A stretch of 64,000 bases of DNA, taken from contig CANNAN010000004.1 of assembly GCA_947502635.1 (NCBI GenBank), positions 1-64,000 of the forward strand, given 5' to 3'. Position numbers and translations under genes: made by a program. Origin of the DNA: an uncultured Flavobacteriaceae bacterium (GTDB taxonomy: Bacteria > Bacteroidota > Bacteroidia > Flavobacteriales > Flavobacteriaceae). Numbering within the stretch: position 1 is the stretch's first letter; the number at the start of each line of letters is the position of its first letter. Under the pieces are notes generated by a model. The model was not told where the DNA came from. It did not search any database and saw only the letters and a list, made by a program, of their open reading frames with translations. Shown one piece after another: positions 1 to 5,913 of this stretch.

Positions 1-567
1 GAAGCCGAATTAAAAGAAAAGCAAAGGATTCAGGATTCTATTGTAAAAGCAAATGAAGTGGCAAAACGACAACAAGAATTATTATTACAAGCGAAAAAGC
101 GTGAAGCCGAATTAAAAGAAAAGCAAAGGCTTCAGGATTCTATTGTAAAAGCAAATGAAGTGGCAAAACGACAACAAGAGTTATTATTACTGGCCAAAAA
201 ACGCGAATCTGAATTAAAAGAAAAGCAAAGGATTCAGGATTCTATTGCTAAAGCTAATGAAGCAGCGAAACGACAACAAGAGTTATTATTACAAGCCAAA
301 AAGCGCGAAGCCGAATTAAAAGAAAAGCAAAGGATTCAGGATTCTATTGCTAAAGCTAATGAAGTAGCAAAACGACAACAAGAATTATTATTACAAGCGA
401 AAAAGCGTGAAGCCGAATTAAAAGAAAAGCAAAGGCTTCAGGATTCTATTGTAAAAGCAAATGAAGTGGCAAAACGACAACAAGAGTTGTTATTGCAAGC
501 CAAAAAGCGAGAAGCCGAATTAGAAGAAAGGCAAAGGGTTCAGGATTCAATTAGTAAGGCTAAGGAA
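1..567 (+). repeat. In-frame 102-bp tandem repeat (34 aa: AKRQQELLLQAKKREAELKEKQRLQDSIVKANEV)
   Basis: Unit starts at 58, 160, 262, 364 and 466 (exact 102-bp period), with a partial unit at 1-57 and a degenerate unit after 568. Confidence 0.95.
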
Positions 568-1161
568 ACGGCAGCTAAACATCTACAGGAACTGTTATTT
601 CAAGCTCAAAAACGCGAAGCCGAATTAAAAGAAAAACTAAGACTTCAGGATTCTATTATTAAAGCTAAGGAAACAACAAAACATCAAGAAGAATTACCAG
701 CAGTAGACACAAATGAAGAAACGGACTTAGAAAGAGTTAAATTTCGAAATACATGCCATTATACTATAAATAGTTATGACGAATTTCATAAAAAAACTCA
801 TATTCGAACCGATCTTTATACAATAAGTGATGATTTAACCGTAGAATTATATAAATATGGACAGCAAGTAAGTATCTTTTTTAATTCTAAAAAAGATTTA
901 GGATGTGTTAGTTATTTTTCTAATAATCGATCTTCTGTAAGAGTTAAACTTGAAAATAATCAGACAATTATATTTTATCATACTTGGAATATGGAATGTG
1001 GTGAGTTTTTATTCAGGGGAAACCTTTCTAAATCACAAATGATACGTTTGGAAAAGTCTCCAATTAAATCAATACTATTAAAAGGAACAGAGGGTACCCT
1101 TGATATTACAGATATAGATTATAAAGAGTTTTTTATTGATAAGTTGAAATGCCTTGAATGA
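1..1161 (+). CDS. Coiled-coil repeat protein (5'-truncated by window edge) with a non-repetitive C-terminal domain
   Basis: Frame is open from base 1 (EAELKEKQRIQDSIVKANEV...), so the GTG at 58 is not the true start. Charged heptad-like 34-aa repeats are followed by about 150 aa of unique sequence. Confidence 0.8.
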   Translation, partial: EAELKEKQRIQDSIVKANEVAKRQQELLLQAKKREAELKEKQRLQDSIVKANEVAKRQQELLLLAKKRESELKEKQRIQDSIAKANEAAKRQQELLLQAKKREAELKEKQRIQDSIAKANEVAKRQQELLLQAKKREAELKEKQRLQDSIVKANEVAKRQQELLLQAKKREAELEERQRVQDSISKAKETAAKHLQELLFQAQKREAELKEKLRLQDSIIKAKETTKHQEELPAVDTNEETDLERVKFRNTCHYTINSYDEFHKKTHIRTDLYTISDDLTVELYKYGQQVSIFFNSKKDLGCVSYFSNNRSSVRVKLENNQTIIFYHTWNMECGEFLFRGNLSKSQMIRLEKSPIKSILLKGTEGTLDITDIDYKEFFIDKLKCLE

Positions 1162-1856: not shown

Positions 1857-2065
1857 GTTTTTTTAATATTTTTCTAGTTTAGAAGCCAAATATCTGGGTT
1901 TATTTAATTTTAAATCACCCTGTTTTCAGTGAAAATGGAATGTAGATACGATTCAACTATATACGTTGCGTAAAACGTCCATAGGACTTTTTTGACGCAG
2001 CCCAAAGTTAATAAATAAGCGAGAGTTTCTGTTTAGGAAATCTGTTGCAATGTATTGTAGGTTTT

Positions 2066-2214
2066 GTGACTGTTGCACAATTACCATTTCAAAACTATCA
2101 AGTATTTTATGTATTTAGCTATTTTTTAAGCGACTGATTTACAGTGTTAAGTTTCTTTTGAATTTATGGAAAACAGTCTGGCTTTATCAAAAATAGTTGT
2201 TGCGCAACGGTTAC
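2066..2214. mobile_element. MITE-like element, copy 1 (149 bp)
   Basis: Ends GTGACTGTTGCACAAT / GTTGCGCAACGGTTAC are inverted repeats. TTTT lies directly at both sides (2062-2065 and 2215-2218). About 93% identical to 4908-5056. Confidence 0.8.
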
Positions 2215-2235
2215 TTTTGTTATAGCACTTTTAAT

Positions 2236-3324
2236 TTAATACTTTGCAGCTAATATCGCTAATTCCCTTGTAATTTTGGTTGGTGAATTACAATCGCAGT
2301 TATTCAATCCTATAACATAGATATCTTCTTTAGGAAGATATACTCCCATTGATTTGAAACCAAAAATATGTCCACCATGCTCTCTAGTGGAAATTCCATT
2401 TATTTCTTTAATATGCCATCCATATCCGTAGTTAATATACTTTCCATTATTCAATGTATAATTGGTAAATGCTTTTTGAGTTGATTCCATACTAATCAAA
2501 AGGTTTTTCTTTATAGCTTCTTGCCATTTTAACATATCATCTACGTTAGAAATTAGAGACCCAGCGGCATAAGGTAATGTATAACTGATATACTTATTTT
2601 TAACATAGTCATCTCTTTTATGGTAACCAGAAACTTTGTTTTTGATAACTTTAGTATGAGTCGCATATGAGGACGATGACATGTTTAATTTTTTGAATAT
2701 ATTTTCTTCTACAAAATTGGTGTAATTTTGTCCAGACAGTAATTCTATGATATAGCCTAAAATAATATAGCCAGAATTATTATATTTAAATTCTTCTCCA
2801 GGATTAAAATCCATTGACTCGTTTTTAAAGAAATCGATAAGCTCTAAAGGGGTTAAATCATTTTTGGATATACCTCTAATTTCTTTCATACGCGTATAGT
2901 TCTTTATACCAGATGTATGAGTGAGTAGATGATGAATTGTAATGGTCTTACCATGCGTAGGGTAATCAGGGATAAATTTTGTGATTTCATCATTCAAATC
3001 TAGTTTCCTTCTTTCCATAAGCATTAAAATAGATATTGCAGTAAACTGTTTTGTTATAGAACCTATTTCAAAAATATTTTCTGTTTGCATTGGAACACTC
3101 AATTCCAGATTTGCGAGACCAAATGCTTCTTTGTAAATGATGTTTCCGTTTTTTGAAATTAAGAAGGTTGCACCTGGGCCATTTGGAGGATATTTTTCTT
3201 GCAATAAACTATCAATATTGGATTTTAAATCTTGAGCGTAGCATATAGATTGAGAATTAATGGATAAAACAGTAACAATTATTAATAGATACTTTAAATA
3301 AAGTGCTTTTTTCATTTTTGTCAT
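2236..3324 (-). CDS. Serine hydrolase, class C beta-lactamase-like family
   Basis: SITK (SxxK), YNNSGY (YxN) and HGG motifs; signal peptide. Confidence 0.85.
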   Translation of the reverse strand: MTKMKKALYLKYLLIIVTVLSINSQSICYAQDLKSNIDSLLQEKYPPNGPGATFLISKNGNIIYKEAFGLANLELSVPMQTENIFEIGSITKQFTAISILMLMERRKLDLNDEITKFIPDYPTHGKTITIHHLLTHTSGIKNYTRMKEIRGISKNDLTPLELIDFFKNESMDFNPGEEFKYNNSGYIILGYIIELLSGQNYTNFVEENIFKKLNMSSSSYATHTKVIKNKVSGYHKRDDYVKNKYISYTLPYAAGSLISNVDDMLKWQEAIKKNLLISMESTQKAFTNYTLNNGKYINYGYGWHIKEINGISTREHGGHIFGFKSMGVYLPKEDIYVIGLNNCDCNSPTKITRELAILAAKY

Positions 3325-3543
3325 TTTAAATATTATTTGTTCATTGGACGATGAATAAAATATTTTGGTTACAAAAAATTAAAATAGATATAATTGAAGT
3401 TATAGAATGAAGATCGTTTCTTGCTTATGAGCAGTAAGAGAGCAAACTGACGTTTATAATTATACATCTATGAAAAAGCTGTAAGTCTAGAATCTCTATA
3501 AATCACAAAAAATATGAACACTCAAATTAATGCTCAACCAAAG

Positions 3544-4047
3544 TTATACATTGGGGTCAACATTCACAAGATAATAAAGTAGAACTCCATAAATGATATC
3601 TAACCAAAAAAAATGTAGAATTCTAGCTATATAAATTATGGCTACCAATGGAATACCAACTAAGGCAAGATAATTACCTTTTTTAATTTCAATAATACTA
3701 TTTTTCCATAATAAATCTCCCATTTTTGTGTTGGGAAATGAATGAGCCGCAATCGAAATACCAAGCCATACAAATATAAATTCTATATCTGGAATAAGGT
3801 TTAGTCCTATATAAAATAGTATCAAAGAAATAAATGACATAATAATGAATGGTAGAATTGCAATTCCAAATGTTTTTGAATATTCTTTTGGGATATCATG
3901 AACTACTGGAAGTTCTTCTCCTGTTATGGAAAAATAATTCACTTGAAACAACTCTATTTTTAAATATTCACAACTCTTTTTATTAATAAAAGCATCTAAT
4001 ATTACACCTGGAAAAGTTAGTATTCGAATAAGTAATCCTATTATCAT
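3544..4047 (-). CDS. Hypothetical membrane protein
   Basis: Intact 167-aa ORF with multiple hydrophobic segments. Confidence 0.6.
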   Translation of the reverse strand: MIIGLLIRILTFPGVILDAFINKKSCEYLKIELFQVNYFSITGEELPVVHDIPKEYSKTFGIAILPFIIMSFISLILFYIGLNLIPDIEFIFVWLGISIAAHSFPNTKMGDLLWKNSIIEIKKGNYLALVGIPLVAIIYIARILHFFWLDIIYGVLLYYLVNVDPNV

Positions 4048-4233
4048 AGATTTTTATTTATTGTACATAGTATTTTATTTTTTTCCTTTTGGAATTGTTC
4101 CGCTCATCCATTCTTTCACTTTAAACGTCCCAAACATTAGATTGCCAATATTCTCAACTGAAATCATCAAGTTCACCACTTAATGAAACATATAGCAATT
4201 AACAGTATGGTAAAAATCTTTATTTTCATTTTA

Positions 4234-4697
4234 TTATTTATTTTCAAAAAGTTCCTTTAGCGAATCATTTTTATATTCTGTGTGATGATTAATAGCTGGC
4301 AGTAATACTATAACAAGGTCGACCAAACTTATGAAATCTTTTTCTGTATAAACTAAATAGTCAACTGTTCCTGATCTGGATGCGAAACATCATCTCCAAC
4401 TTTCAATTTTAAATCAGGGTAAGAAACGTTATCACTTGCTCTGATTTTAAAATCTGGATAATTTGATTTTGTTATTATGAAATTTGCTTGACTTTTATTA
4501 GAAGTAACACGGACAGTAAAACCCTCATAACTCATATCACTTCCTATTTTTATTCTAATATCAGGATATGAAACATTGTCTCCAATTTTTACTCGTAAAT
4601 CTGGATAGGAAATATTATCTTCGACCTTAAATGTTGTCTGTGAAAAAGAATAACAGGCGTTTAAAATTATAAGGCTTAAAACTAATTTTAATTTCAT
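4234..4697 (-). pseudogene. Secreted repeat protein with (V/I)SYPDxxhKhG repeats, apparently frame-disrupted near its C-terminus
   Basis: The intact ORF 4353-4727 ends ...DDVSHPDQEQLTI*. A different frame carries a protein-like continuation, SGTVDYLVYTEKDFISLVDLVIVLLPAINHHTEYKNDSLKELFENK*, to a stop at 4234-4236. Met at 4697 precedes a signal peptide. Confidence 0.5.
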
Positions 4698-4907
4698 AAT
4701 TGGATTTTTAAAAATGCGACACAACATTAAATATATGCAATCGTGCGTGCAGAAGTTCGAGGAACTTTAGTTTGACAAAAGCGCATATCTTTTTATTTAT
4801 GGCTAATTTAATTTAAAATGTAATAAATCAAAATTGTATGTGCGGCTTAGCAAAAAAGATACCATATTTCCTTTAGATAACCAAACCTGGTATGACGTAT
4901 ATATAGT

Positions 4908-5056
4908 GTGGCTGTTGCACAACTACCATTTCAAAGCTATCAAGTATTTTTATGTGTTTAGCTATTTTTTAAACGACTGATTTACAGTGTTAATTTTCTT
5001 TTGAATTTATGGAAACAGTCTGGTTTTATCAAAAATAGTTGTTGCGCAACAGTTAC
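4908..5056. mobile_element. MITE-like element, copy 2 (149 bp)
   Basis: Ends GTGGCTGTTGCACAAC / GTTGCGCAACAGTTAC. TAGT lies directly at both sides (4904-4907 and 5057-5060). Aligns end to end with 2066-2214. Confidence 0.8.
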
Positions 5057-5072
5057 TAGTGTTACTAACTGG

Positions 5073-5747
5073 CTATTTTTTAAATGCTATTTCAGGAAAA
5101 TGCGGTTTCCATATCTTATTTATGTCTTTTCTTGTATTGGAAAACATAACATCCGATAATTCATTATCAATAACTTTTTTCCTGAATCTACTAGAGACAT
5201 AAATGCCTGCGGAATAGAAAGGGATTTCAAATAGATCAATTGATGAATCAAAATTCTCATTAAAAACTATTCTATTTGTTTTGAAAGAATAACTCTCGGA
5301 ATAGTCCAATTTACTATTAAGCTCGATAAATTTTAGTCTTTCATCATGAGACTCTAGTTTCTTAAGATCGTTCTTTCCTTTGGTAATAATTATATCACTC
5401 TCTTTAAAATCAATCCAATCATGGAACTGATCAAAACAACTCTTGTCATACTTTAAAAACTTATATGAGTACTTTTTTGTGTAGTTTATTAGATTAAGAA
5501 ATTTTTGCTTACGCTTTACTATTGTATCAATAATCTCATATCTAGGAAGTTTAAGTTGTTTTAATATTTCTAAAGTCTTTTCATTGATAACAAAACCATC
5601 ACTATGTGTAGAAAATAGAATGTCATTTAGGTTATCAAATTCATCATCATCATACATTTCACCAACCCAAATTCTAGATTTATTTTTAATGATCTCTTCT
5701 TCATACTCTAGAGCGCCAGAATCATTAATGTGAAAAGTGTAGTACAT
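5073..5747 (-). CDS. Hypothetical protein, possibly Imm11/Imm43-like immunity family
   Basis: ORF track gives 5073-5801; the likely start is MYYTFHIND at 5747. C-terminal 'SAGIYVSSRFRKKVIDNELSDVMF' resembles the IYVSExhKxxhExxxhTGxxF pattern of these families, judged by eye only. Confidence 0.5.
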   Translation of the reverse strand: MYYTFHINDSGALEYEEEIIKNKSRIWVGEMYDDDEFDNLNDILFSTHSDGFVINEKTLEILKQLKLPRYEIIDTIVKRKQKFLNLINYTKKYSYKFLKYDKSCFDQFHDWIDFKESDIIITKGKNDLKKLESHDERLKFIELNSKLDYSESYSFKTNRIVFNENFDSSIDLFEIPFYSAGIYVSSRFRKKVIDNELSDVMFSNTRKDINKIWKPHFPEIAFKK

Positions 5748-5913
5748 GTTTTTTACTTGTTGCCAACAACGGAATATATCTAAAAGTATACATATATCCA
5801 TTATATTTTCACAAATCTAAGTGATTTCTGACTAACTTAAAGTTAATTAGCAACAACTTAAGTGAAATTCATACTATTTTAATACAGTATATAGGGGAGG
5901 ATAAAGCTCTTTT

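Follow-up and report, generated by a model that had tools for sequence, protein, structure and literature searches.

The window, the whole stretch of 64,000 nt analysed here from an uncultured Flavobacteriaceae bacterium, carries near its left end two minus-strand cassette genes, each with a 149-bp repeat just beyond its 3' end. Both repeats interrupt sites that resemble the attC sites of integrons. An integron attC site closes a gene cassette at its 3' end, forms a hairpin and is recombined by the integrase as a folded single strand. It consists of R'', L'', L' and R', with an unpaired spacer and an extrahelical base, and these names are used for the parts of the sites in the window as well.

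1957-1970, no strand: L' arm CTATATACGTTGCG of the copy 1 site, forming a duplex with 2045-2061
2045-2061, no strand: L'' arm TTGCAATGTATTGTAGG of the copy 1 site, pairing with 1957-1970 (duplex -15.0 kcal/mol)
2062-2065, no strand: left 4-bp target duplication TTTT of copy 1
2066-2214, plus strand: MITE copy 1, 149 bp, 93% identical to the other copies
2215-2218, no strand: right 4-bp target duplication TTTT of copy 1
2219-2228, minus strand: R'' box of the copy 1 site (GTTATAGCAC on the plus strand), placed by analogy with the survey consensus
2236-3324, minus strand: cassette gene for a serine beta-lactamase-like protein (PF00144)
4716-4745, no strand: R' box GCGACACAAC (as read on the plus strand) and L' arm of the copy 2 site
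4891-4903, no strand: L'' arm TATGACGTATATA of the copy 2 site (duplex with the upstream arm, -13.9 kcal/mol)
4904-4907, no strand: left 4-bp target duplication TAGT of copy 2
4908-5056, plus strand: MITE copy 2, 149 bp, identical to the copy at C28:10563-10711
5057-5060, no strand: right 4-bp target duplication TAGT of copy 2
5061-5070, minus strand: R'' box of the copy 2 site (GTTACTAACT on the plus strand), end of the cassette that holds the gene at 5073-5801
5073-5801, minus strand: cassette gene for a 242-aa protein with no Pfam family

Elsewhere in this region, a gene at window positions 1-720 contains tandem repeats of ~84 bp that encode the charged repeat KEKQRIQDSIAKANEVAKRQQELLLQAKKREAEL.

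Realignment bears out the report in the initial annotation of two 149-bp copies whose alignment spans their full length with a single compensating pair of 1-nt gaps; the number of substitutions, given there as about nine, is eight. The inverted repeats described at the ends are real in both copies, 16 bp long and imperfect (GTGACTGTTGCACAAT and GTAACCGTTGCGCAAC in copy 1, GTGGCTGTTGCACAAC and GTAACTGTTGCGCAAC in copy 2). The perfect palindrome seen at the right end, GTTGCGCAAC, lies at 2199-2208 and 5041-5050, and the 4-bp duplications TTTT/TTTT and TAGT/TAGT are indeed present. The motif GTTGYRCAAY occurs 10 times in the window, where 0.65 occurrences are expected by chance. The MITE folds better than shuffled sequence (z -3.0), as its terminal inverted repeats (TIRs) would cause, and no Rfam family was found in the window.

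The genome-wide search that the initial annotation had proposed (5.44 Mb, 81 contigs) yielded five full-length copies, 93-100% identical, at C4:2066 and C4:4908 (the window), C28:10563, C33:3555 and C2:25822. Four of these are 99-100% identical to one another and window copy 1 is only 93% identical, which suggests that it is probably older than the rest. The 4-bp flanks are TTTT/TTTT, TAGT/TAGT, TAGT/TAGT, TATT/TATT and CATT/CGTT, exact duplications in four of five cases, with a difference at one base in the fifth. In all five, GTT directly follows the right-hand duplication, a feature that the first reading missed and that is present because the R'' box of an attC-like site starts there. None of the five contains a transposase ORF, as had been stated for the two in the window. 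The repeat is thus short and non-coding, has TIRs in common with an autonomous element elsewhere in its genome, and occurs in several dispersed copies with target duplications, all as in a MITE. The original interpretation as a non-autonomous element holds; what it overlooked is that the copies occupy a fixed attC-like target, not random accessory DNA. No match to the MITE was found in plasmids, nor, outside the genus, in the 300 family genomes searched, apart from one partial match. A congener has a 70%-identical MITE in three copies, likewise inside attC-like sites.

An autonomous IS had been predicted elsewhere in the genome, and such an element is present. Several partial matches to the MITE, limited to its positions 1-33, are the left ends of an IS of ~1.7 kb whose first 16 bases, GTGGCTGTTGCACAAC, are the same as those of the MITE, whose right end, CTTGTGCAACGATTAC, is closely similar to the MITE's, and which is flanked by the duplication CGGT/CGGT. 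Two copies on C27 contain an intact 525-aa transposase ORF; the other copies are decayed. IS1182 elements are single-ORF insertion sequences of about 1.3-2 kb with TIRs. The 1666-1772 bp between the TIRs of complete IS loci fit this size, and the transposase belongs to the IS1182 family, scoring 344 bits on the NCBIfam model NF033551 (cut-off 270), with the Pfam domains PF13751 (DDE_Tnp_1_6) and PF05598. Residues D143, D315 and E442 are invariant in ten homologues and likely form the catalytic triad. This IS1182 element is the most likely mobiliser of the MITE.

The sites that receive these elements are parts of gene cassettes. Read along the genes, a cassette starts with GTTNNNNNNN, usually contains a single gene, and is closed by the reverse complement of that start, NNNNNNNAAC. 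After this come ANN, the L'' arm, a middle part that varies, the L' arm, a spacer of 5-6 nt and the next GTT. Start and end boxes match perfectly over 10 nt in 118 cassettes, so that the R''/R' complementarity of attC sites is found at the cassette ends; the R boxes match within a unit and differ between units, and the units run in one orientation. Complete empty sites fall mainly at 136-141 nt (32 of 59) and 195-206 nt (11 of 59). In the 32 shorter ones, L'' and L' pair despite variation in the sequence of the arms: the summed duplex energy is -442 kcal/mol for a site's own arms and -234 ± 14 kcal/mol for swapped arms, and none of 20000 swapped-arm permutations was as low as the own arms. In the duplexes drawn, the L' arm keeps an unpaired base at a roughly constant position. 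Uninterrupted sites lie between genes on small contigs, e.g. C28, C27 and C18, in constant orientation to the neighbouring genes. Three 'sites' of 125-131 nt from C13, which have the common end TTTTATACGTCATGTTGAATGAG, were not counted as a size class. The box order of integron attC sites has been described (PMC7923331), and by analogy with it the anatomy of the flavobacterial sites is that of an integron attC. Unlike integron R boxes, with the consensus GTTRRRY / RYYYAAC, the flavobacterial R box is 10 nt long and conserves only GTT and, in part, the following R. Because of this reduced GTT(A/G) box and a non-canonical recombinase, the sites are called 'attC-like' here. A 207-aa protein (motif HNHPSGE, RadC/JAB-like by eye) is the cassette gene at least three times in the genome (L125:5576-6199, L125:7404-8027 and L126:5434-6057).

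In the window, the copy 2 site (4716-5070) measures 202 nt once the MITE and one TAGT are removed and so belongs to the 200-205 nt class; its arms are ATTAAATATATGCAATCG and GTATGACGTATATA, and its R'' box matches a candidate cassette start near 5843 at 8 of 10 positions, as read from the sequence. The copy 1 site measures about 128 nt without the MITE, and its arms still pair. No cassette start matching its R'' box was found, and for that reason the site looks degenerate. The placement of both copies just 3' of minus-strand genes, correctly noted in the initial annotation, is accounted for by the target: the elements enter the 3' end of a cassette, where attC sits.

Throughout the genome, all MITE and IS ends are bordered alike, by TATA-CNNT to the left and by NNNT-GTT to the right. 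Position and orientation within an attC-like site are the same for all MITE copies and for nearly all related IS elements: they lie in the spacer that separates the L'' arm from the R'' box, and the consensus of the duplication is CNNT. Filled and empty homologous left flanks in the same genome are at least 85% identical right up to the insertion point (the MITE on C28 against C27:2077, the MITE on C2 against C18:1987, and the IS at C27:2956 against C18:208). Homologous empty sites thus exist elsewhere in the genome. For the window loci themselves, empty sites in relatives, which had been proposed as a check, could not be demonstrated, since the window cassettes lack good orthologues: among 60 relatives, no orthologue of the gene at 5073-5801 was found, and the beta-lactamase-like gene had only partial matches of ~70%. 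Neither of two patterns served as a diagnostic of the target: the strict pattern TATACNNTGTTRNNNAAC occurs 27 times in the genome and its reversed control 37 times, with no excess, and the short motif TTTWTAYNNTGTTR occurs 73 times against 65. The diagnostic features are the arms and cassette boxes, not the short motif alone. The right end of the IS, GCAACGGTTAC, is vaguely like the L'' arm GCAATNANTTATA that it replaces beside CNNT-GTT. The resemblance may be accidental, or it may point to the way in which the transposase finds the site.

A close homologue of the transposase is encoded in 17 of 201 family genomes, and the flanks there show the same target. In a wider survey, ~85,000 species genomes were scanned with an alignment of ten transposase sequences, and the best 80 of 271 relatives were kept (loci L182-L261). 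These loci were picked by transposase similarity only and their ends were found by working outwards from the transposase, so the flanks are unselected; both ends were located in 69, of which 67 could be scored. The hosts are mostly marine Bacteroidota, including Maribacter, Zobellia, Arenibacter, Aquimarina, Kordia, Leeuwenhoekiella, Mesonia, Psychroflexus, Aequorivita, Cellulophaga, Formosa and others, as well as Marinifilum and Labilibaculum. Among the 67 scorable loci from these best 80 relatives, the left motif is present in 61 and NNNTGTT on the right in 64. Exceptions to the left motif include L201 (TATA/TATA, then GTT), which is not attC-like in appearance, and L203 and L240, which have R''-like sequence on the left. 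Identical 4-bp flanks occur in 32 of the 67, compared with 7.6 expected after shuffling (maximum 18 in 5000), and this excess confirms the flanks as target duplications. In about half of the IS copies the 4-bp flanks are unequal though the motif is kept, a difference that presumably arose after insertion, when copies or arrays recombined or cassettes were exchanged.

Two further properties of the interrupted sites were measured. The L'' arm adjoining the IS pairs with an arm either about 112 or about 178 nt upstream, which corresponds to the two size classes of the empty sites, and the energy sum over own pairs is -871, versus -552 ± 16 for swapped arms (n=74). In addition, the box on the right flank is the reverse complement of the start of its own cassette in 26 of 60 loci when no more than one mismatch in 11 is allowed and the partner is sought downstream, which is true of about 1% of box-swapped controls. 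Two viral contigs encode only transposase relatives of 39-46% identity, and no comparable target was worked out there.

A recombinase accompanies some of the arrays. In three congeners (L272, G005:C24; L271, G006:C6; L270, G008:C42), a tyrosine recombinase gene heads the cassette array and is co-oriented with its cassettes; the recombinases at L270 and L272 are 289 and 375 aa long. In G009 and G010, too, the recombinase gene is followed by attC-like boxes. The array-head proteins score 180-209 bits on the integron-integrase model TIGR02249, below its cut-off of 265, and leave about 60 of its positions (~180-240) unmatched between two matched stretches. They match best the XerA-like model NF040815 ('site-specific tyrosine recombinase/integron integrase'), and a sequence comparison with solved structures places the integron integrase 2a3v in the top three. 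An adjacent IntI with the IntI-specific additional domain was not found; judging from the model alignment, the array-head recombinase appears to do without that domain. In the genome of the window, the recombinase is present only as a broken remnant (C27:823-1089), and its arrays may lack a dedicated integrase, or an assembly gap may hide the gene; the draft is broken up by the arrays into small contigs. Integron-like arrays headed by a XerA-like recombinase are apparently widespread in Flavobacteriaceae.

The 149-bp element is very probably a MITE that arose from an IS1182-family IS and is mobilised in trans, and its lineage inserts at a fixed point and in a fixed orientation in attC-like sites with duplication of CNNT. 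Points against this reading are the unequal 4-bp flanks of about half of the IS copies, the degenerate copy 1 site and the exceptions to the left motif. What is observed directly is the structure of the element, the intact partner IS, the target position across many species, and the organisation of the sites as cassette ends and hairpins. In the mechanism that these features suggest, IS1182 transposase supplied by an intact copy of the IS would bind the TIRs of the IS or of the MITE and would recognise an attC-like site by the sequence TATANCNNT-GTT, by its hairpin, or by both. The element would then be joined across the 4-nt spacer between L'' and R'', with its left end (GTGG/GTGC) towards L'' and its right end towards the R'' box, followed by NNNT-GTT, and repair would duplicate CNNT. 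The cassette would keep its gene, and with R'' now 149 bp or 1.7 kb from L'', recombination at the site should stop or weaken, so that insertion would impair the site. The idea that the MITE preserves the attC-like stem by folding on itself found no support, as the pairs kept averaged 77%, compared with 70% for shuffled inserts.

It might be argued that this is an ordinary IS-derived MITE with a weak target preference, and that the common flanks merely reflect AT-rich intergenic sites. The short motif TTTWTAYNNTGTTR means little by itself, being no commoner than its reversed control (73 versus 65), but in 64 of 67 IS loci that were chosen independently the right end is followed by NNNTGTT, the left arm has its pairing partner upstream at either of two set distances, and base composition cannot yield the match to the cassette start; this explanation is regarded as refuted and as very improbable. 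Even less credible is the proposal that the repeat is immobile, being either an integral component of certain cassette sites or a small RNA under conservation. Its constant location within a site and its folding (z -3.0) would fit such a role. However, it belongs to no Rfam family, its ends match those of an autonomous IS, and 4-bp duplications flank it, and the element-free homologous sites, together with IS copies at the same point, refute the proposal.

A more serious possibility, though still an unlikely one, is that the target is a REP- or terminator-like palindromic repeat which resembles attC, is unrelated to integrons, and is hit through a general IS1182 taste for palindromes. A passage of PMC5678879, citing Siguier et al., has IS1182 members targeting palindromic or stem-loop sequences, and a 54%-identical IS1182 relative (L164, in G130) sits in the perfect palindrome AAACGGCCGTTT with the duplication GGCC. 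The recombinases beside the arrays are not canonical IntI, and recombination at the sites is itself a prediction. Against this, the R boxes match within single-gene units and differ between them, as in integron cassettes, the units share one orientation, and a tyrosine recombinase gene heads the array in several congeners. The L164 case agrees with the taste for palindromes reported for the family (PMC5678879), and it looks as though specialisation on attC-like sites derived from a general liking of IS1182 elements for palindromes.

IS1111-attC elements insert at integron attC sites by means of an IS110-type DEDD transposase; their choice of target is RNA-guided, and they have no true TIRs or target duplications of the kind described here. 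The flavobacterial element resembles them in being inserted at attC(-like) sites and differs in being a DDE IS with TIRs and 4-bp duplications, whose IS1182 transposase is unrelated to theirs. A passage of PMC11187229 cites the IS1111-attC elements as an attC-targeting group. Group IIC-attC introns are likewise mobile elements with attC(-like) sites as a target, and use attC in integrase-less clusters as well (PMC7923331). The flavobacterial IS has a transposase that passes the NCBIfam equivalog cut-off for the IS1182 family, e.g. IS1272, a family with reported targets in palindromes or stem-loops (PMC5678879). In IS1272 the element takes the place of the stem-loop that it targets and no duplication results (PMC5678879). 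The flavobacterial element differs in that it makes a 4-bp duplication, keeps the stem, and inserts at the edge of one specific class of site. As far as could be found, a DDE IS and its MITE homing to the attC-like spacer would be a third kind of attC-targeting element, and the palindrome taste reported for IS1182 would gain a concrete, testable target.

The arrays themselves are like those of integrons in their single-gene units, single orientation, terminal hairpin site, order R''-spacer-L''...L'-spacer-R' and complementary end boxes, and unlike them in the R box and in an adjacent recombinase that falls below the integron-integrase cut-off and apparently lacks the IntI-specific domain. In a published survey made with IntegronFinder 2.0, Salinibacter ruber was the one member of the Bacteroidetes in which a complete integron was reported (PMC9024848). 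In the literature searched, in which subscription papers and preprints are poorly covered, no description was found of IS1182 elements or MITEs at attC, of these flavobacterial arrays, or of integrons in Flavobacteria or Bacteroidota, and novelty is therefore provisional. The MITE as such is a fresh member of a familiar kind, and the arrays may be the larger discovery. It is an evenly balanced question whether Flavobacteriia and some other Bacteroidota possess a widespread and largely unrecognised integron-like system, with attC-like sites of two fixed sizes and a XerA-like recombinase without the IntI domain, on whose sites an IS1182 lineage and its MITEs have specialised, marking and freezing the cassettes. 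The insertions act as pointers that expose cassette arrays across many flavobacterial genera. If active, these arrays would give marine bacteria an extensive pool of mobile genes, served by a recombinase that can dispense with the domain regarded as defining for integron integrases.

Recombinase genes were also met in two other settings. One cassette array (L264/L265, G007:C29:205000-244999) contains at least four near-identical 113-aa C-terminal recombinase fragments, as well as shorter ones, spaced 1.4-4 kb apart. The 15474-bp contig G000:C26 (L140) contains the same sequence twice at a distance of 7706 bp, and each copy encodes a 321-aa tyrosine recombinase; the contig is possibly a circular replicon of ~7.7 kb assembled as a dimer.
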